Source: Luteitalea pratensis (lineage in GTDB: Bacteria; Acidobacteriota; Vicinamibacteria; Vicinamibacterales; Vicinamibacteraceae). Taken from it: a DNA stretch of 64,000 nucleotides. The stretch lies in assembly GCF_001618865.1 (NCBI RefSeq), contig NZ_CP015136.1, forward strand, positions 903,001 through 967,000, read 5' to 3'. Numbering within the stretch: position 1 is the first letter of the stretch; the number at the start of each line of letters is the position of its first letter. The translations under genes and the position numbers were made by a program. Positions 2,543 through 28,847 of the stretch are shown here, one piece after another. Under the pieces are notes generated by a model. That model did not search any database. It was not told the DNA's origin and saw only the letters and a list, made by a program, of their open reading frames with translations.

Positions 2543-4204
2543 CTACTCCAGTTTGAACGAGACCGACACCGTCATGACCACTTCGACGGGACCGCCGTTG
2601 AGCAGCGTCGGTTCGAACTTCCACTGGCGTACGGCATCGAGCGCCGCGCTTGCCAGGTCCGGGTGCACCTGCGCCGCCGTGACGCGCGCCGCCGTCACGC
2701 TGCCGTCCCGCCCGATCACGGCTTCGATACTGACCACGCCTTCCTGACCGGCTTCCTGCATCGACTCCGGGTAGACCGGCTTGACGTCCTTGGTCTTGCG
2801 CGGTGGCCGGATGTTGCCGCCGACCCGCACCCGCACCGGACTGGCCGCCGCGGCTGCGCCAGTGCCGCGACGTCCCGTCACGCTGATGGTTTCCTGTACG
2901 GCGCCGACCTGCAGATTGACGATGCGGTTCCAGTCGGCCGGCTGTCGCAGTTCGAGGTCCTGCCGCAGCGCCCGGAAGCCTGGCAACTCCGCCGCGAGCA
3001 CGTATCGGCCTGGCTCGATGGCCGGGAAGACGAACCGCCCCTCGGCATCCGTGGTGGCCTGCGCCTTCTTGCCACCACTCATCTTGCCGAGCATGAGTTC
3101 CATCGCCTCGGTGGACGAGAGGGGACCAACGAGTACGAGGCGGACCTCGGGGACGACCGCACCCGTGGGGTCGTACACGACACCCTCGAGCTCTCCCTGG
3201 GCCGCGGTGCCGCGGATGGCGGCGACGGGCATGACGAGCAGCAACAGCGCGGCGATGGCGAGGGCGATGGTCGTGCGCGTCGGTGCCGCACGTTGGATAT
3301 GGGGATTCAGCATGGCCGTGATTCTCCTGTGCAGGGTGGAAGGGCGAGCCATCGGCATCGCGATGGCGTTCGGTGTTCGGTTACGGAAAGTTCGCGCGAT
3401 GGCCACCAGGTGACCGGCGTAGGCATGCGCAGCAATCCCCTGCGCCAGCACTTCGTCGTCGCACGCGCGCTCGCTCTCGATGGCCAGCCGGTGGCACATC
3501 ACCCACACGAGCGGATTCCACCAGAACAGTGCCCGTATGACTGTCGCGTAGACCTGCCAGGCCCAGTCGTTCCTGCGCACGTGGGCGAGCTCGTGACCGA
3601 GCACGACGTCGACTCGCGTGCAGGACCAGTCGAGCGCCTCGCGAGGCACGAGCAGGTAGGCGCGCCGCCAACCCCATGTCGCGAGCAGGTCGGCGCTTGG
3701 ACTTTCGCGAAGCACCACGGGTCGGCGTAGCCCCGCCGCACGCGACGCCCTGGCGAGGGCCTCGTCCCACTGTGGCTGTCCGATGGGCGCGGCCGTGCGC
3801 GTGGCCCTGGCGAGGCGCACCAGCGACAACGCGAGGGCGCCGAGGGCGATGGCCGTGCCGAGGCCCCACAGTGCGAAGAGCAGCGTGCCCCACGACAACC
3901 GCGCCGGCTCAGCTGGCGTGGCCGCGCCGAGCGGTGCCGGTAGGGCCATAACAGGCGCGCCGACGAGCGCGACGTGTTCACTCACTGGCGGCATCGACTG
4001 CGTCGTCACGAACGGCCGCGGCAGGGTCACTGCGATCGCAGGCAGGACCGCGCCAAGCGGAGCGGCCAGCGGAGTGGCGCAGAGCGTCGCGACCAGCAGC
4101 GCATGCCGGAGCGCGGGCGCCTGCCCGCGAAGGGCGGCGTAGCCGATCAGTCCGATCAGCAGCACGACCGACCCACGAAGGGCGACTTCGATCATGGCCG
4201 TCAT
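2543..4204 (-). CDS. M56 (BlaR1-like) membrane metallopeptidase fused to CarboxypepD_reg and TonB C-terminal domains
   Basis: A 553-residue protein. The N-terminal 320 residues hold several membrane helices around a zinc site HELAH (204-208), with the downstream ESERACDDE stretch (243-251) giving the third ligand, as in BlaR1/MecR1 sensor proteases. After a last helix (about 312-332) come a carboxypeptidase-regulatory-like domain (about 340-415) and a TonB C-terminal domain (about 470-553, with PVYPESMQEAGQEGVV). Its ATG overlaps the stop of the upstream blaI-type gene (ATGA), so the two are translationally coupled. In the known family, the protease relieves BlaI repression on a signal. Here the sensor domain is replaced by the regulatory and TonB modules, so the signal is probably not a beta-lactam; that is inference. 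Confidence 0.88.
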   Translation of the reverse strand: MTAMIEVALRGSVVLLIGLIGYAALRGQAPALRHALLVATLCATPLAAPLGAVLPAIAVTLPRPFVTTQSMPPVSEHVALVGAPVMALPAPLGAATPAEPARLSWGTLLFALWGLGTAIALGALALSLVRLARATRTAAPIGQPQWDEALARASRAAGLRRPVVLRESPSADLLATWGWRRAYLLVPREALDWSCTRVDVVLGHELAHVRRNDWAWQVYATVIRALFWWNPLVWVMCHRLAIESERACDDEVLAQGIAAHAYAGHLVAIARTFRNRTPNAIAMPMARPSTLHRRITAMLNPHIQRAAPTRTTIALAIAALLLLVMPVAAIRGTAAQGELEGVVYDPTGAVVPEVRLVLVGPLSSTEAMELMLGKMSGGKKAQATTDAEGRFVFPAIEPGRYVLAAELPGFRALRQDLELRQPADWNRIVNLQVGAVQETISVTGRRGTGAAAAASPVRVRVGGNIRPPRKTKDVKPVYPESMQEAGQEGVVSIEAVIGRDGSVTAARVTAAQVHPDLASAALDAVRQWKFEPTLLNGGPVEVVMTVSVSFKLE

Positions 4205-4578
4205 GACGCTTCCTCCCGCGCGCGGCGCACCAGCGATTCGATGCGTTCGAGTTCGTCCGGCGTGAGCTGGCCGACATCGGTGCCGAGCAACGCCGCAACG
4301 ACCTTCGCGCGCGATCCGTCGAAAAACGTCTCGACCAGGTGTCGCAAGGCCGACCGCCGGGCCGAGTGTCTGGGTACTGTCGGCGCGTAGACGTACCGGT
4401 TGCCGTGCGTCTCGTGGACGACGTGTCCCTTCGCCTCGAGGATCCGCAACTGCGTCCGCACGGTCGAGTCGGTCGGGGATCCGGGCAGCGCGGCCAGCAC
4501 CTCCGCGGCCGTGGCCCGCCCGTGCCGGTACAGCACGTCCATGATCTGCCGCTCACGTCTGCTCAGCGCCTGGTGCAT
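4201..4578 (-). CDS. BlaI/MecI/CopY-family transcriptional repressor
   Basis: A 125-residue winged-helix repressor starting MHQALSRRERQIMDVLYRHG, with the family's N-terminal helix-turn-helix (about 5-75) and a C-terminal dimerisation segment (LTPDELERIESLVRRAREE). The start at 4578 has a GGAG site five or six bases upstream and lies just downstream of a clear inverted repeat (4598-4613) that is probably its own operator. It forms an ATGA-overlapping pair with the M56 protein. By family precedent, cleavage of the repressor by the M56 partner would release this operon and possibly other targets elsewhere. Confidence 0.92.
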   Translation of the reverse strand: MHQALSRRERQIMDVLYRHGRATAAEVLAALPGSPTDSTVRTQLRILEAKGHVVHETHGNRYVYAPTVPRHSARRSALRHLVETFFDGSRAKVVAALLGTDVGQLTPDELERIESLVRRAREEAS

Positions 4579-4587
4579 CGATCGCTC

Positions 4588-4613
4588 CGTTAAATTTTTA
4601 ACGTTACCGTTAA
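4588..4613 (-). promoter_or_regulatory. Probable BlaI-type operator upstream of the repressor
   Basis: Just upstream of the blaI-like start is a perfect 6-4-6 inverted repeat, TTAACG-GTAA-CGTTAA on the minus strand (4598-4613), and a third half-site CGTTAA-type copy at 4588-4593. The AT-rich block stands out sharply from its GC-rich surroundings. Its position over the likely promoter fits autoregulation. The repeat is seen directly; the binding protein is inferred. Confidence 0.7.
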
Positions 4614-4698
4614 TTTGATAACACCTCTTGGGACGCCTGTCAACACCCGTCTCGATCAAGGGAACAGGGCGAGGGATACCCCGTCGTACCATGGCCGC

Positions 4699-20186: not shown

Positions 20187-20525
20187 TCACGAGCGCGTGC
20201 GAGCGCCGGCAGGCCACACTTGCAGCCGGTCGCCGCTGCGGTTCATCAAGACCTGGTCGAAGGTCGCAATCACGACATCCGGCCCGATGGCGTCCTGCCA
20301 CACCAGCGCCGACGCGAGCTGAACCGCGCCGCATCCGCGCAGTCCGTGTTCCCAGGCCAGGCCATCGGCTCGTGTGACGAGGACCTCGGTCCAGGGGATC
20401 CTGACCAAGTCGGGCCCCTCGCCAGCGAAGCGTCGATGGGCGTTCTGGCCCGCGTCGGAGCTCAACGCATTCAGGCGCACGGCGCGGGCCAGAGCTGCGG
20501 CGCCTTCCAGCCCATCACCCTTCAT
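20187..20525 (-). pseudogene. Truncated PIN-domain (VapC-like) toxin remnant
   Basis: The C-terminal two thirds of a PIN ribonuclease are recognisable (AVQLASALVWQDAIG, VVIATFDQVLMN, LQVWP). The N-terminal strand with the first catalytic Asp is absent; instead the frame starts with an ATG overlapping the PD40 gene stop. GCGAVQ replaces the usual GYDAVQ, losing another acidic residue. A second, related remnant is at 26297-26662. It is unlikely to be active. Confidence 0.75.
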
Positions 20526-22481: not shown

Positions 22482-22901
22482 CTACTTCCAGCCGGTGGAC
22501 TTCCGCAGGAAGCGGGCTGGGATGGCGGGCTTGGCAGCGGCCTCGGGCTCCTGCACGCCGGCTGGTTCGCCCGATGCGGCCTGGATCTCGCGCTCGAGTT
22601 CCTCGTCGTTGGGCAGGCCGGCCATCTGGTCGACGAAGACCAGCGACTGCTGCGACGGGATCTCGAACCGCTTGCCACACTCCGCGCACGTCAGCTCGTC
22701 CTCGACGCGCAGGAGGTAGTCCCGCAGCTTGGCGAACTTGGCGCGGTCCTGCTCGTCGGCGCCGCCGGGCAGGCGGTCCTTCTTCGAGCGCCGCACCCAG
22801 CGCACGCTGTACTCGTTGGTCCGCTTGCATCGGGGGCACTGATGGCGGGCCTTGCGGGTCTCGGGTCGCTCGTTGAAGAAGGCGCGCTCGTCGAGGGACA
22901 T
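22482..22901 (-). CDS. Zinc-ribbon-like protein
   Basis: A 139-residue hypothetical protein with two CxxC knuckles, CPRCKRTN (22-29) and CAECGKRF (about 72-79), which probably hold one zinc ion. The C-terminus is acidic, then Ala/Pro-rich and ends basic (RFLRKSTGWK). No signal peptide or membrane helix is seen. Function unknown; it might bind nucleic acid or protein. Confidence 0.7.
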   Translation of the reverse strand: MSLDERAFFNERPETRKARHQCPRCKRTNEYSVRWVRRSKKDRLPGGADEQDRAKFAKLRDYLLRVEDELTCAECGKRFEIPSQQSLVFVDQMAGLPNDEELEREIQAASGEPAGVQEPEAAAKPAIPARFLRKSTGWK

Positions 22902-22911
22902 GCGCCGATGG

Positions 22912-23092
22912 TAACGCCTAACGCCTAACGCCTAACGCCTGACGCCTGACGCCTGACGCCTGACGCCGGTCGACCAGGGTCGACCGCTACACCACAGAAG
23001 GGTATGGGCGTCGAGAGAGGGGTGTAGGCGTCGAGCTTGCTCGACGCGTAAAGCGCTCGAGGCCTCCGAGCCCTATCCAAGCCCAGGTGCCT
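22912..23092. repeat. Composite repeat, copy A (heptamers plus two hairpins)
   Basis: Eight tandem heptamers (four TAACGCC, four TGACGCC, 22912-22967) are followed by the hairpin CGGTCGACC-AG-GGTCGACCG, then by GTGTAG and the hairpin GCGTCGAGC-TT-GCTCGACGC (23028-23047), and a tail GCTCGAGGCCTCCGAGCCC. A shorter copy of the same unit lies at 24819-24955. Together they bracket the winged-helix/lytic-transglycosylase gene. Confidence 0.85.
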
Positions 23093-23210
23093 GGCGGTGG
23101 GGCAACCTCGGCCAAGGCTGAGTAGAATACGACGCACTCCCGTTCTGTTGCCGCGCGTCCGCCCTTGCGCGGCGAGTTGGCACCTGGGCGCGTCGTTCGA
23201 AGGAGCGGAC

Positions 23211-24674
23211 GTGACGCACGAGATGGCCAACCCGTTGTCGGAGGCAGTCGTGCGATCGCCCGGCATAGAGGTGTATGCCTTCGGCCCGATCCGCGTCGAC
23301 GTCGCGCGCCACATCGTCTTGCGCGACGGGCAACCTATCGCGCTCGCGCCCAAGACCTTCGAGTTACTGCTGATCCTCGTGCGTAGCGGCGGCCGCGCGC
23401 TATCGCGGCAGGAACTGGTCGCGAAGTTGTGGGCCGACACATTCGTCGAGGAGGCCAACCTCTCGTTTCAGATCTCGACGCTCCGCCGGGTGCTCGGTAT
23501 GGGCGCCGAGCTGTGGATCGAAACGGTCCCGAAGGTGGGGTACCGGTTCACGCCGGAGGTGACACGCGAGGCGCCAACACCCGCGACTCCACCCCCTGCC
23601 AGGATGCTGCCTGGGGAAGGAGATGAAACCACCCCTGCGCCGACATTGCTGACGCCAGACGGGATCTCGACCCGGCGACGATGGATGTCTGCCAGCGAAT
23701 GGAGGAAGGGGACTAGATTTCGCGCGCTGCATGTTCTGGCTTCGCTCTGTGCCGCGTTGGCGGTGGGGCTTGTCGCACTGGGGATGGTGTACGACCGCGA
23801 GCGACAGCGGAGCCAGGACCTGAGACAACTGGCGGCGGAGACCTTCTTCCAAACGCGCGAATTGGACGCCGATCTTGCCAGACTCCGCCGAAGCGGAGCT
23901 TCGTCGAACACCCTTGTGCGTTCCTCGTATCGACTGACGAAGCTCGAGGAGTCGTACGACCGCTATCTGGAGCTCATCGGCACGTATGCAGGGAAGACAC
24001 AGGCCGAACGGTCGGTCATGCGCATGGCTCGCCGGCTGGGGGAATCGGAACTGGACGTGTCCCCGGGGTTCCATGCGCTTGCGATGCAGTACGTGGAGGA
24101 GTGGCGCGCCGATGCGCCACTGCTGCGAGCCGCGCTCGATCGTGCCCGCGAAGGTAATCTGTTGGAGCTGGTGTACAAGGCCCTCGATGAGCGAGGGCTT
24201 CCGAGGGAGTTGGCCCTGATTCCACTCCAGGAAAGCGATTTCGACATCGCGTGGGTCGGAGCCCGGAGGCCCCGCGGTATATCCAAGGGCATGTGGGGGT
24301 TCATTCCCGATCTCGCGACGAGGTACGGTCTGGCCCTGGGGCCCCTTCACAACGCTCCGATCTACGACGCCCTGGACGAACGGCACGACCCTGTGCGTTC
24401 AACCGACGCCGCGGTGAGCCATCTGGCGGATCTCTATTCGAGCCCGGCAGCGGCTTCCGGGCTCCTGGTCATTGCCGCCTACAACTACGGCCCGGGCAAC
24501 GTCATCAACAAGCTCAACGAACTTCCCGATGATCCGCGTGATCGCAACTTCTGGAATTTCTACAGGCACAAGTGGATGTCCGATGAGGCATTGGACTATG
24601 TGATGTCAGTCTTCGCGGCGGCACTCATCTGCGAGGATCCCGCGCTGTTCGACATACCCATCGAACGGCCTTGA
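23211..24674 (+). CDS. Winged-helix DNA-binding domain / membrane helix / lytic-transglycosylase fusion
   Basis: A 487-residue protein with three parts. Residues 20-114 are an OmpR/CadC-type winged helix (FGPIRVD, LAPKTFELLLILVRSGGRAL, ETVPKVGYRFTPE). Residues about 172-193 form one membrane helix (ALHVLASLCAALAVGLVALG), followed by a charged helical stretch (195-260). Residues about 320-470 are an SLT/MltD-like lytic-transglycosylase domain with the catalytic glutamate in PLQESDFD (Glu341), GMWGFIPDLATRYGL (360-374) and AAYNYGPGNVI (422-432). Start GTG 23211 has AAGGAG 6 bases upstream. Predicted topology puts DNA binding inside and the muramidase-fold domain in the periplasm, so it may sense or cut peptidoglycan and report to DNA. 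I know no characterised protein with this domain order. Confidence 0.87.
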   Translation: MTHEMANPLSEAVVRSPGIEVYAFGPIRVDVARHIVLRDGQPIALAPKTFELLLILVRSGGRALSRQELVAKLWADTFVEEANLSFQISTLRRVLGMGAELWIETVPKVGYRFTPEVTREAPTPATPPPARMLPGEGDETTPAPTLLTPDGISTRRRWMSASEWRKGTRFRALHVLASLCAALAVGLVALGMVYDRERQRSQDLRQLAAETFFQTRELDADLARLRRSGASSNTLVRSSYRLTKLEESYDRYLELIGTYAGKTQAERSVMRMARRLGESELDVSPGFHALAMQYVEEWRADAPLLRAALDRAREGNLLELVYKALDERGLPRELALIPLQESDFDIAWVGARRPRGISKGMWGFIPDLATRYGLALGPLHNAPIYDALDERHDPVRSTDAAVSHLADLYSSPAAASGLLVIAAYNYGPGNVINKLNELPDDPRDRNFWNFYRHKWMSDEALDYVMSVFAAALICEDPALFDIPIERP

Positions 24675-24683
24675 GGCTGGAAC

Positions 24684-24791
24684 CATCACGATGCCGTGGG
24701 CGTGGCCTGGACACCTGACGGACGCTCACTCATCGTCGGCAAGCACGATGACGCGCTGAGTGACATCGTCCTGATCGAACTGCGGCCCTGA
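24684..24791 (+). pseudogene. PD40 propeller C-terminal fragment
   Basis: After the fusion gene's stop, a short frame reads HHDAVGVAWTPDGRSLIVG and ends LIELRP-stop. It is the last blade of a PD40 protein with no start and nothing before it. Confidence 0.6.
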
Positions 24792-24818
24792 CTGCTGCTT
24801 TCGTCCCAGAGCGGCGGT

Positions 24819-24955
24819 TAACGCCTGACGCCTGACGCCTGACGCCGGTCGACCAAGGTCGACCGCTACACCACGGAAGGGTGTAGGCGTCGAGCTTGCT
24901 CGACGCGTAAGGTCGACGCTCGAGGCCTCTGAGCCCCAACCAAGCCTCAGTGCCC
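24819..24955. repeat. Composite repeat, copy B
   Basis: Four heptamers (TAACGCC, three TGACGCC, 24819-24846), the hairpin CGGTCGACC-AA-GGTCGACCG (24846-24865), GTGTAG plus the hairpin GCGTCGAGC-TT-GCTCGACGC (24887-24906), and a tail resembling copy A. It is a direct repeat of 22912-23092 and sits just before another gene fragment. Confidence 0.85.
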
Positions 24956-25153
24956 AGGACGCTGTTCCGATTCGATCCTGCCAACCTTGGCATCGCCTGT
25001 GTGCCCCTCCGGTGCTACGACATCTCGCCGGACGGCCGGCGGTTCTACGCCGTGCAACGTCGGCCGCGCCAACCTCCGCCGCCGGTCACGCACGTCGGCC
25101 TCATCACCAACTGGTTCGAGGAACTGCAGGCCAAGGTCCCCTCACGTCGGTAG
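24950..25153 (+). pseudogene. C-terminal fragment of a PD40/kinase-type protein
   Basis: About 67 codons encode CYDISPDGRRFYAVQRRP, PPPPVTHVGLITNWFEELQ and KVPSRR-stop. This is the standard C-terminus of acidobacterial propeller proteins attached to serine/threonine kinases or winged-helix domains. No upstream part exists, so it is a remnant. Bases 25154-25298 hold nothing recognisable. Confidence 0.7.
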
Positions 25154-25298
25154 TGTCACGATGGGCCCCTGACGGAACCCGTGAGCATTCGGTTGCGAAA
25201 GGACTCGTGCATGACACCGATCTTATGGTTGCCGACCCCTTGCGATGACGTCGGGCGGTGCGTCGTCCTCAGCGGCAGTCGCTTCGCCCACCTGGGCG

Positions 25299-25616
25299 TC
25301 ACTCCAGATCGGGCAACTGCGCGCGCGTGAGCCTGAGGCGGATCGATCGGGGCCTCCCCGGCTCACGGTCGACGAAGCCACGCTCGTGCAGGGTGACGAT
25401 CATCTGGTGCACCACGGGCGCTGTCACCCCGAAGTACCGTCGCAGGTCGGCCTCTGACGGCGAGACGCGATGAATCTTGGTGTAGTAGTGGATGAACGCG
25501 AGGTACTGCCCCTGCTTCGCCGTCATCGGTCGTGACGAACCGGTGACGCTTGAAGTTTCCCCCTCGGTCGGTTCACCACTCCTGCTCGGGTCTGGCGTCG
25601 CAGGCGGCTTCGGCAT
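25299..25616 (-). CDS. LexA-like winged-helix DNA-binding protein
   Basis: A 105-residue protein; after a Pro/Ser-rich N-terminus, residues about 32-105 (MTAKQGQYLAFIHYYTKIHR ... RYFGVTAPVVHQMIVTLHER) resemble the LexA N-terminal DNA-binding domain. The LexA protease domain is absent. The ATG at 25616 is a guess; the motif itself begins at a second ATG (25523). It may be a small repressor. It is surrounded by gene debris and oriented against the adjacent PD40 remnant. Confidence 0.65.
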   Translation of the reverse strand: MPKPPATPDPSRSGEPTEGETSSVTGSSRPMTAKQGQYLAFIHYYTKIHRVSPSEADLRRYFGVTAPVVHQMIVTLHERGFVDREPGRPRSIRLRLTRAQLPDLE

Positions 25617-25679
25617 GAAGCACAGGATCCGTGACCGACGCCGTCGATCGCAATCGTGGAGTGGAGTGTTCGCCGCGTC

Positions 25680-26278
25680 GATGGCTGACGGCAAACGCAT
25701 CCTGTTCAACGCGGCGCCGCGAGCCACCGGCGGCCTCTTCCTGCTCGACGCGGAAACCGCCCGCGCAACCCGCCTCGAGACGGGACCCGGGTACGTGCTG
25801 GAGGGGAAATGGTCGCGCGACGGGCGGTGGATCTACTTCTCCCGGCAGACCACCGAGGTGATCGACGATGCCAACGTCTGGCGCATGCCGGCGGGCGGCG
25901 GCTTCGCCGTGCAAGTCACGCAGCGCCGTAGCAGCGCCGCGCAGGAGTCGCCCGACGGTCGCTGGCTTTACTTCACGCGCCAGCGAGATCTGGCGTATGC
26001 CCCTTGGGGGTGGCCCGGAGGAGCACGTCGCGTCAGGCCTGATGGGCGTCCTGAACCTCGTCGTCGGACGCAGGCACCTCTACTTCCCTGCCGCCGGTGC
26101 GGGATTCGGCACGATCGACGCGGTCGATCTGCGCACAGGGACACAGACGACGATCGCCAGGCTGGGAAAGCCGGTCGGTGGCGGGCTGGCGCTGTCACCG
26201 GACGAGCGCACGCTGCTCGTGCCCCTCGTCAACGCCGAAGGCAGCGACCTGATGCTGGTCGAGCCGGTACAGCACTGA
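25680..26278 (+). pseudogene. Frameshifted PD40 propeller remnant
   Basis: One frame encodes SRDGRWIYFSRQTTEVIDD and SPDGRWLYFTRQ. About 25985-26000 the protein continues in the next frame with EIWRMPLGGGPEEHVASG and runs to LVPLVNAEGSDLMLVEP-stop. The join lies in the SRQ/EIWRMP region. The winged-helix and membrane parts expected upstream are missing. This is the C-terminal half of a winged-helix/PD40 protein, broken by a frameshift. Confidence 0.75.
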
Positions 26279-26296
26279 AGGCGCCGGGTCTCTGGG

Positions 26297-26662
26297 CTAT
26301 CCGGGTCCGCGGGTCCCGGCATTGCCGGGCCATGCCTGCAATCCGCTTGCCTCGGCGGCGTTCATCAACACCTGATCGACCGTCGCGAAAACGACATCCC
26401 GCCCGATGGCGTCCTGCCAGACCAGCGCTGACGCGAGCTGAACCGCGTCGTATCCGCGCAGTCCATGCTCCTGGCCAGGCCATCGGCTCGTGCCACGAGC
26501 ACCTCGGTTACGGGAACCCTGACAAAATCTGGCCACTCGTCGGCGAAGCGTCGTTGCGCATGCCCCGGCGACTTGGCTCAACCCGCCAAGGCGCACGGCC
26601 CGGGCAAAGGCCGCGGCGACCTCCACGCGACTGACCATCGATGTCGCGGCCGCACGGCCCAT
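26297..26662 (-). pseudogene. PIN-domain (VapC-like) toxin remnant with frameshifts
   Basis: The two ends of a PIN protein are in frame (VSRVEVAAAFARAVRLGGL and GLRGYDAVQLASALVWQDAI ... FATVDQVLMNAAEASGLQ). The middle, RRFADEWPDFVRVPVTEVLV, is in a different frame, so at least two indels have occurred. The first catalytic Asp region is absent. It is closely related to the remnant at 20187-20525. Confidence 0.75.
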
Positions 26663-26771
26663 GTGTGGCGCGCCTCTTGTTCGGCGTTGCCGTTCGCCGT
26701 TCTCGCTCCGGCCGCGCGTCGGAGCGTTCGGGATGCCATGACATCACAGTGCCAGATGCTATGATGACGCC

Positions 26772-27038
26772 ATGCGGACCACGGTACGCCTCGATGATGT
26801 GCTGCTCGAGCGCCTGAAGGCCCAGGCGCGGGCCGAGAAAGTGAGCCTCACGCGCATGCTCAACCGCGCCCTGAAGGCGGGGCTCGATGCAGGAGGCGCG
26901 CGCAAGCGACCGCGACGGGCCTATCGGGAGCGGGTGCACGCGATGGGCGTTCCTCGCGTCGCCCTCGACAAGGCGCTGGCGATGGCCGCCGCGCTCGAAG
27001 ACGAGGAAGTCGTCCGCGAACTCGCGACTCGCAAGTGA
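26772..27038 (+). CDS. Ribbon-helix-helix antitoxin (VapB-like)
   Basis: An 88-residue protein with an N-terminal ribbon-helix-helix (MRTTVRLDDVLLERLKAQAR, VSLTRMLNRALKAGL) and a basic middle followed by an acidic tail, typical of antitoxins that bind their own promoter and cap the toxin. The stop overlaps the next gene's GTG start by four bases (GTGA), so the pair is translationally coupled. Confidence 0.85.
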   Translation: MRTTVRLDDVLLERLKAQARAEKVSLTRMLNRALKAGLDAGGARKRPRRAYRERVHAMGVPRVALDKALAMAAALEDEEVVRELATRK

Positions 27039-27469
27039 AGATCGTCGACCTGAACATCCTGCTCTACGCCATCAACGCCGAGGCGGCCCAGCACCAGAGC
27101 GCGCGTCAGTGGTGGGAGCGCACCGTCAACGACGGCGAGGAGGTGATCGGGCTGCCATGGGTGGTCCTGCTCGGCTTCCTGCGACTGTCCACCAATCCCC
27201 GCGTGTTCCCGCGCCCGCTCACGCCCGATGCCGCGGCAGCGAAAGTGGACACATGGCTCGCCCTCGACAACGTCCGTGTCGTGCGGGAGAAGGACGAGCA
27301 CTGGGAAGTCCTGAAATCGCTGCTGGCCACCAGCGGCGCCGCGGGGAATCTCACCACCGATGCGCACCTCGCGGCCCTCGCGCTCACCCATGACGCCGTG
27401 CTGGTGTCGAGTGATACGGACTTCGCGCGCTTCAGGGGCCTGAGGCTGGAGAACGCCTTGCGGGGCTGA
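27035..27469 (+). CDS. PIN-domain ribonuclease toxin (VapC-like)
   Basis: A 144-residue PIN protein. Acidic active-site residues appear at the expected places: Asp5 in KIVDLNILLYA, Glu in AINAEAAQHQSA, Asp in TTDAHLAALAL and Asp in VSSDTDFARF. The family cleaves tRNA or rRNA. It is intact, unlike the two PIN remnants nearby, and belongs to a different PIN subfamily (FLRLSTNPRVFPRPLT). The GTG start is set by overlap with the antitoxin. Confidence 0.87.
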   Translation: MKIVDLNILLYAINAEAAQHQSARQWWERTVNDGEEVIGLPWVVLLGFLRLSTNPRVFPRPLTPDAAAAKVDTWLALDNVRVVREKDEHWEVLKSLLATSGAAGNLTTDAHLAALALTHDAVLVSSDTDFARFRGLRLENALRG

Positions 27470-27518
27470 TCCGCCTTCACGTTCCGCGAGCTTGGCCTGC
27501 CGACCGCGTCTCCCGTCG

Positions 27519-28847
27519 TCAGCCCGCCGGGGCGACCAGCGGGTCGTCGTGACCAGCCCGGGCCACGCGCCGCATCGGCTGTCGTACCCCGTACGTCAGC
27601 GAGCGCCACAGCCACTCGAGCGGCCCGAAACGGCAATGCGCGAGCCAGATCGGGCTGATCACGAGCTGGACGGCCCAGATCGCGAACACGACGTAATAGA
27701 GCTGGTGGCGCGACAGGTGGCCGTACAGGCCGAATCCGAAGCTCCGGAAGACCAGCATGCAGACGATCGAGTGCGAGACGTAGTTGCTCAGCGCCATCTG
27801 GCCCACGGCGGCCAGGCCCCGCTGCAGCCAGCCGAGGATCCCGGCGTTGCAGAACAGCATCAGCAGGCCCACGTGCCCTGTCGTCATCGCCAGTCGGCCG
27901 AGGTCGTAAGTCACCTCGGCCTGCACCCGCGCCAGCGTATGGAAGTGGTACGTCAGCAGGTGTCGTACCTCGAAGAGGTTCACCGTCAGGCCTATACCGT
28001 ACCCGAGCACGACCATCCACACGTACGCGCCGCGCGGATGACCGAGGTGCAGCAGCCCGAGCTTGAACAACGCCATGCCGATCAGCATCAGCGACCAGAC
28101 ATCGAAGAAGTACCTGTACTGAAACCAGCTCTCGTGGTGCGCGACGGTCGGCGCCTGGAACGCGACGACGGTGGCATACGACCCTCGCATCGACTCGAGC
28201 GTGTCCCGGATCTTGTCCGCGTCCGGATTCATCTCGTCGACCAGTGCCGGCCAGGCCTTGAGGGCCTTGGTCTGCGGGCGCGTCAACGTCGCCCCAGCGG
28301 CCTGTGCCGCCCGTGCCTCCTGGTAGGCCGTGTGCTTCTTGATCGCGTTGTACGCATCGAGCTGGTTCCATGCCGCGCCGACCAGCAATCCGCCGAGGGC
28401 GAAGGCGAACAGCGTGCGCGGGGTGGCCTTGCGGAACGCGTAGACGAACGGCGCGGTGGCTCCGTAGAAGAACAGGATCTCGCCGGTCCACAAGAGCAGG
28501 TACCCGTGCACGATGCCGAAGACGATCAGCCACAGGTTGCGTCGGAAGAACACGTGCGACGCGTCGCCACCCCGGGCGTCGATGCGCTCGGTGAGCAGGA
28601 GGACGCCGGCGCCGAACAGCAGCGAGAAGAGCCCGCGCTGTGTGCCCTCAAACAACATGCTCGTCGCAATCCACGCCCACAGGTCGGCACCGGTAGCGCC
28701 GCCGTAGATGTGCGGCACCGAGTACGCGAACGGCATGCCGAAGGACGTGATGTTCATCAGCAGGATGCCGAACAGGGCGACCCCGCGCATCACGTCCAGC
28801 GTGATCAGGCGTTCGTCCGTCCTGCTGCAGTGGTGTCTGCGCCGCAC
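27519..28847 (-). CDS. DUF418/YeiB-family multi-pass membrane protein
   Basis: A 442-residue protein with about ten membrane helices. It has the family's N-terminal RLITLDVMRGVALFGILLMN and the C-terminal DUF418 block (GQMALSNYVSHSIVC, GPLEWLWRSLTYG). Its function is unknown; it is suspected to be a transporter or acyltransferase-like protein. The GTG start at 28847 may not be real: an ATG at 28851 with an AAGGGA ribosome site opens MSAAQTPLQQD in another frame. A tandem GTCC-GTCC at 28815-28822 could be a 4-base duplication that shifted the frame. Confidence 0.83.
   Translation of the reverse strand: MRRRHHCSRTDERLITLDVMRGVALFGILLMNITSFGMPFAYSVPHIYGGATGADLWAWIATSMLFEGTQRGLFSLLFGAGVLLLTERIDARGGDASHVFFRRNLWLIVFGIVHGYLLLWTGEILFFYGATAPFVYAFRKATPRTLFAFALGGLLVGAAWNQLDAYNAIKKHTAYQEARAAQAAGATLTRPQTKALKAWPALVDEMNPDADKIRDTLESMRGSYATVVAFQAPTVAHHESWFQYRYFFDVWSLMLIGMALFKLGLLHLGHPRGAYVWMVVLGYGIGLTVNLFEVRHLLTYHFHTLARVQAEVTYDLGRLAMTTGHVGLLMLFCNAGILGWLQRGLAAVGQMALSNYVSHSIVCMLVFRSFGFGLYGHLSRHQLYYVVFAIWAVQLVISPIWLAHCRFGPLEWLWRSLTYGVRQPMRRVARAGHDDPLVAPAG

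Follow-up and report, generated by a model that had tools for sequence, protein, structure and literature searches.

Can a single protein carry a DNA-binding head inside the cell and a wall-cutting domain outside it, and what would such a protein do? This question is raised by one gene in the window (the whole stretch of 64,000 nucleotides of Luteitalea pratensis DNA that was analysed), for which the first-pass annotation had claimed an OmpR/CadC-type winged helix joined through one membrane helix to a lytic-transglycosylase domain. Bacteria need wall synthesis to be matched to wall damage, and known routes of wall sensing work through soluble fragments, through kinases, or through separate binding domains. 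One protein that cuts the wall outside and binds DNA inside, if true, would make the link from sensing to expression directly testable. Judging from the sequence, the fusion is real and looks rare. The explanation put forward here, plausible while falling somewhat short of probable, is that of a membrane-spanning one-component regulator with a CadC/ToxR layout, derived from an OmpR-type winged helix fused to a membrane helix, stalk, and SLT domain (TM-stalk-SLT).

The gene and its start are placed as follows:

23211-24674, + strand: wHTH-TM-SLT gene, an open reading frame with a GTG start (487 amino acids)
23200-23205, + strand: AAGGAG, a ribosome-binding-site-like sequence ending five bases 5' of the GTG

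Translation of 23211-24674 gives one uninterrupted frame with zero internal stops. An alternative in-frame start is found further upstream, at 23097. The GC1/2/3 values of 23097-23210 (0.71/0.66/0.66) are not coding-like, but those of the linker within the protein (residues 124-164; 0.61/0.73/0.63) are no better, so the start at 23211 is preferred chiefly for its ribosome site. The two halves of the gene display a coding-type pattern (GC3 of 0.86 and 0.74), from which the linker between them departs. Around the joint (23500-23801), this frame is open, and stops occur in the other two forward frames and in one of the three reverse frames. A scan of 22900-25300 for sigma-70 promoters and terminators found nothing.

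The protein comprises the following parts:

23268-23564, + strand: OmpR-type winged helix, residues about 20-118 (Pfam, PDB matches, paralogue identity)
23565-23699, + strand: Pro/Ala/Thr-rich linker, residues 119-163 (boundaries of the paralogue match)
23724-23789, + strand: single predicted membrane helix, residues 172-193 (hydropathy; basic residues precede the helix)
23790-24080, + strand: helical stalk, residues 194-290 (model helices 2-35, 39-66, and 71-82 in model numbering; pLDDT blocks of 58-78)
24081-24653, + strand: lytic-transglycosylase (SLT/GH23) domain, residues about 291-481 (Pfam, NCBIfam, PDB, model)

The winged helix, earlier placed at residues 20-114, is matched by Pfam Trans_reg_C above its curated cut-off at residues 40-113 (E 1.5e-16, 60.7 bits, cut-off 26.2), and PDB matches to OmpR-family regulators, ranking after the transglycosylase entry described below, span residues about 20-115. 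Hydropathy gives one strong peak only, at residues 172-193, where the membrane helix had been proposed. The basic residues in front of it, together with the substrate expected for an SLT domain, suggest that the SLT domain lies outside and the winged helix inside, in agreement with the layout first claimed.

The outer domain, first put at about 320-470, is recognised by Pfam SLT above its cut-off at residues 327-437 (E 1.5e-12, 47.6 bits, cut-off 21.3), and the top PDB match of the whole protein is 8rhe, a LysM-type transglycosylase (residues 313-481, E 4.6e-10). The NCBIfam MltD model aligns with residues 320-481 (E 2e-12), but its 46.2 bits fall well below the cut-off (508); the domain is, therefore, regarded as MltD-related, not as MltD itself. 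Modelling of the full-length protein from its sequence alone gave nothing usable (mean pLDDT 38.5). The structure model of residues 194-487, for which the protein and 12 viral SLT rows served as the alignment, has a mean pLDDT of 80.5; most of its SLT domain lies in blocks of 84-98, with a dip to 70-77. Comparison of a predicted structure with MltD had been suggested at the outset, and it finds the SLT fold present: P. aeruginosa MltD is matched with a Foldseek E of 3.3e-5 and a VIA Z of 18.8 (rmsd 3.5-3.6, 186 aligned), followed by MltF, MltE, Slt, and MltC.

The GH23/SLT motifs are a catalytic Glu, with Ser next to it, and AYN. Three sites matter here:

24231-24233, + strand: codon of the catalytic Glu341 (Glu throughout the 38 aligned rows)
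24297-24299, + strand: Gly363 where Gln is usual (36 of 38 rows have Gln, L075 has Met, and this protein alone has Gly)
24477-24485, + strand: Ala-Tyr-Asn motif, residues 423-425 (Tyr424 in 38 of 38 rows, Asn425 in 35 of 38)

Ser342 is likewise kept in all 38 aligned SLT rows, and the motifs of the protein read GMWGFIP from residue 360 and AYNYG from residue 423. The Gln of G-x-x-Q, its role following Slt70, is what we take to be the usual SLT residue, without holding it to be defining; its replacement by Gly363 may weaken catalysis or binding. The claim of a catalytically competent domain is thus upheld for Glu341, Ser342, and AYN, and qualified at the usual Gln. As the catalytic residues are kept and the model is MltD-like, yet Gly363 is present, competence is likely but not certain, and the outer part is probably an active, or at least a substrate-binding, transglycosylase.

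The kept catalytic Glu and Tyr also suit a rather unlikely alternative, in which the protein is mainly an enzyme, i.e., a tethered lytic transglycosylase whose winged helix is idle or only keeps the protein near DNA. Gly363 speaks against full enzymatic strength, and the winged helix is complete, with the recognition-helix region of its paralogues kept as judged by eye. This alternative gains from the relatives of the SLT half, membrane-tethered transglycosylases that carry FHA heads; from this descent, enzymatic use of the TM-SLT module is probably ancestral.

The family emerged from a search of the own genome with the protein, which returned 62 places. The second best was a 520-residue frame (L032), aligned with residues 164-487 at 38% identity, in which Pfam finds FHA (E 1.8e-16) and SLT (E 3.9e-13). 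The match to L032 begins at residue 164, or at 137 by blastp, and those to five other relatives at 186-205. These five (L073, L074, L075, L045, and L046) are FHA-TM-SLT proteins like L032, so that FHA is found in all six relatives with a visible head. Pfam FHA is above its cut-off in each of the five, that of L073 having been tested on the N-terminal 240 residues; SLT was assigned by homology in L073 and is above its cut-off in the other five. A T-[MLV]-M-I-R motif precedes the membrane helix in 6/6 FHA-TM-SLT proteins and is lost in the present protein; a phosphothreonine role for it would be a guess. No published name for the FHA-TM-SLT proteins was found among the open-licence papers listed.

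In the 38-row SLT tree, rooted at the midpoint, the protein groups with L044, its closest relative (99/91), the six FHA-TM-SLT rows form a group of their own (99/98), and all eight stand together (100/100). The rows are limited to matches with a locus (30 of the 58 phylum matches had one, to which L032 and L078 were added), and L083, with two stops in frame, was dropped before the row count; the heads of 26 among the 58 phylum match rows lie outside the head count. A winged-helix profile built on own-genome paralogues matches only one of the 38 rows, the protein itself, and none of the other 37. An FHA profile matches 8/38, six of which built the profile. Separately, a second clade of tethered SLT rows has FHA in L050 and L056 and SLT alone in L078 and L082 (Pfam). 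A2, an alignment in which SLT and winged-helix rows were combined, was discarded, because its single invariant column suggested that the two domains had been set against each other.

FHA-TM-SLT genes have similar-looking neighbours in the own genome (G000, L119) and in G427, G428, and G261 (L120, L121, and L123). At L119, Pfam identifies a carbamoyltransferase (2847-4631) and a radical-SAM/SPASM protein (945-2123); other neighbours are, by eye, glycosyltransferase-like or an NPVGPG-type lipoprotein. In G008, a Pkinase gene (L126 7724-9841, Pfam E 1.3e-56) lies directly downstream of the FHA-TM-SLT gene, and in G188, the SLT fragment has downstream of it, on the same strand, a gene (L125 12-2828) that encodes protein-kinase (E 1.4e-24) together with PEGA domains. 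These kinase genes suggest a pathway from kinase through FHA to wall enzyme, and the family, present in several Acidobacteriota, may itself tie kinase signalling to the cell wall.

The head has another ancestry. The winged helix and linker are up to 62% identical to those of L109 (757 amino acids, same genome), through residue 159. L109 contains Trans_reg_C (Pfam E 2.3e-15) and PD40 (E 5.5e-33), and the same pair is confirmed by Pfam in L110, L111, and L112. The linker, by eye, resembles those of these wHTH-PD40 paralogues, and the fusion joint probably falls within its Pro/Ala/Thr-rich residues 119-163. Pfam finds no PD40 propeller in the protein; PD40-like sequence occurs only as a tail after the stop:

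24675-24791, + strand: PD40/WD40-like tail of 38 codons, in the frame of the gene, directly after its stop codon

This tail reads as a last propeller blade and closes with a stop. Aligned with the C-terminal end of L109, it scores 56 against a shuffle mean of 20 and maximum of 41 (0/500 as high); for the tails of L110, L111, and L112, 3, 4, and 40 of 500 shuffles were equally good. With phmmer, five members of a small own-paralogue set were matched (E 4.9e-9 to 4.6e-4, spread over several weak repeats). The best non-self match in the whole own genome is weak (E 0.0185), and Pfam yields sub-threshold matches only (best E 0.0049, far under cut-off). The tail is likely the fossil of a wHTH-PD40 gene, the middle of which was replaced by the TM-SLT module; as it is short, this evidence is moderate. 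Two further PD40-like tails picked out by eye (24971-25155 and 25868-26278) have no Pfam match.

Gene and tail lie in DNA that the congeneric genomes lack at this place:

22954-27523, no strand assigned: accessory segment of 4.6 kb, which 4/4 congeneric genomes lack next to their counterpart of the left neighbour
22919-23091, no strand assigned: intergenic repeat, upstream copy
24819-24954, no strand assigned: intergenic repeat, downstream copy

In G425, only 20 bases lie between the neighbours that correspond to 22482-22953 and 27524-28804; in G424, the two are set 1.57 kb apart by other sequence. In G423 and G426, the left neighbour gives way, within about 160 bases, to sequence that corresponds to 31596/31742 onward and 32572 onward. 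SLT matches at E <= 1e-15 are absent from all four congeners (G423-G426). The repeat that flanks the gene has at least 42 genome matches, itself included, at E <= 0.001; both the congener comparison and the repeat count scored 40 candidates per genome, and the counts are lower bounds. As the segment is missing in all four congeners, its insertion is the simplest reading, and its loss from the congeners is a possible alternative.

Other reading frames of the region were noted in passing. The overlapping ORFs 26772-27038 and 27035-27469 encode first a small protein of ribbon-helix-helix-like type, which falls just short of the cut-off, and then a PIN-domain protein (E 5.9e-16), and are likely a toxin-antitoxin pair. 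The segment also holds an ORF with a LexA-type DNA-binding domain (25299-25727, - strand; Pfam E 5.4e-7, above cut-off). Two ORFs on the - strand (20187-20525 and 26297-26662) have in common a stretch like EHGLRG.[DG]AVQLASALVWQDAIG; Pfam gave no support for viewing them, as had been done by eye, as PIN-like fossils or tails.

The FHA heads of the SLT clade, the closeness of the winged helix to wHTH-PD40 proteins, the PD40-like tail, and the accessory segment together make the gene look like the product of a head exchange on accessory DNA, in which a winged helix replaced an FHA head.

A second wHTH-SLT protein was searched for in a partial sample of Acidobacteriota genomes, and none was found. 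The sample consisted of overlapping phylum draws of 297, 396, and 395 genomes, 162 genomes of the order, and 38 of the class of G188, with E thresholds of 1e-15 (297-genome and order draws), 1e-20 (class of G188), and 1e-25 (396- and 395-genome draws); such thresholds would let a more distant SLT domain with a winged helix escape. Matches at E <= 1e-25 came from 5 genomes in the draw of 396 and from 4 in that of 395, and none of them added a member to the subclade formed by the protein and L044. L044 itself, from G188, is 54% identical over 198 residues. Its contig of 3,791 bases ends inside the gene, which cuts off the head, and the missing N-terminal half was found on no other G188 contig; L044 nevertheless places the SLT subclade in more than one genome, its head unseen. 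The 30 loci returned by a single cross-phylum contig scan matched the winged-helix side in every case. Among viral contigs, the single-sequence query found no relative and the alignment query at least 16 distant SLT loci, 12 of which became the model rows. Plasmids gave 26 records (10 of them listed), all below 60% identity and none covering 80% of the query. No protein combining a winged helix or FHA with a transglycosylase appears in the titles and abstract openings of the open-licence literature matches listed, which agrees with the earlier statement that no characterised example was known, as weak evidence of absence.

Since no second wHTH-SLT protein was found, there is no conservation argument for function. 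A recent chimera that has no selected function, produced by recombination within an accessory segment that is unstable, and so far undecayed, would account for the lack of a second instance in the sampled genomes, for the absence of the segment from 4/4 congeners, for the PD40 fossil adjoining the gene, and for the repeats on both sides. The intact ORF with its ribosome site, the coding-type GC pattern in both halves (not in the linker), and the occurrence of the SLT subclade in another genome all weigh against it; uniqueness and the accessory setting keep it in consideration as an unlikely, but not negligible, account. An assembly or annotation artefact misjoining two genes, which the uniqueness of the arrangement in what was searched might suggest, is very improbable: the genome is a single contig of 7,480,314 bp, the frame is uninterrupted, the neighbours on either side of the segment also occur together in congeners, and the linker, by eye, is like those of the wHTH-PD40 paralogues, so that the claim of one protein holds.

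In CadC/ToxR proteins, winged helices are placed or paired at the promoter. If the protein is a one-component regulator, as preferred here, the winged helix would bind DNA in the cytoplasm, the helical stalk would hold the SLT domain and allow pairing, and the SLT domain, on the periplasmic side, would bind glycan strands and probably cut them. How far the domain is occupied by substrate, or where it sits in the wall, might then alter how the winged helices pair or are placed at a promoter. Against this reading stand Gly363, the lack of a second example, the absence of the segment from 4/4 congeners, the empty promoter and terminator scan, and the weaker tests of the PD40-like tail. The more specific proposal that the protein senses peptidoglycan through a competent transglycosylase, cutting or occupancy being read out as expression after exchange of the FHA head for a DNA-binding one, is doubtful. 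Either of the functions first suggested, direct reading of peptidoglycan state or an enzyme activity coupled to transcription, may apply. Compared with the first-pass annotation, what is new is the FHA-headed parent family, the head swap on an accessory segment, Gly363, and the failure to find a second example.

How does the protein compare with known systems? The main text of the survey PMC10269533 gives zero hits for "transglycosylase", "peptidoglycan", "enzym", and "peptidase". The HigX paper (PMC13384398) describes a membrane regulator of the LytTR type, with four TM helices, that acts on envelope genes, and this design is unlike that of the present protein. MltD (GH23) is the best match for the outer domain in both fold and sequence, but has no DNA-binding head, and MltD-like rows mostly start, by eye, with signal-peptide- or lipoprotein-like stretches. 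The wHTH-TM-PD40 regulators, such as L109, have the winged helix and linker in common with the protein, and the C-terminus of L109 aligns with the in-frame tail downstream; their outer part, however, is a propeller, in place of which the protein has an SLT domain. The FHA-TM-SLT proteins of Acidobacteriota are homologous in membrane helix, stalk, and SLT domain (33-37% identity over 293-362 positions), and differ in the head, which is FHA in these proteins and a winged helix, with no FHA match, in the present one. These relatives suggest a principle, namely a tethered wall-cutting module with exchangeable heads, either FHA (phospho-signal) or winged helix (DNA). The CadC/ToxR regulators have the same order of an N-terminal OmpR-type winged helix, one membrane helix, and a C-terminal domain, which in the present protein is predicted to lie outside, and the NCBIfam CadC model aligns with residues 34-204 (E 6.9e-10), far under its cut-off. 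To our knowledge, the outer domains of known CadC/ToxR proteins are sensors without a wall-cutting fold, whereas the predicted outer part of this protein is an SLT domain.
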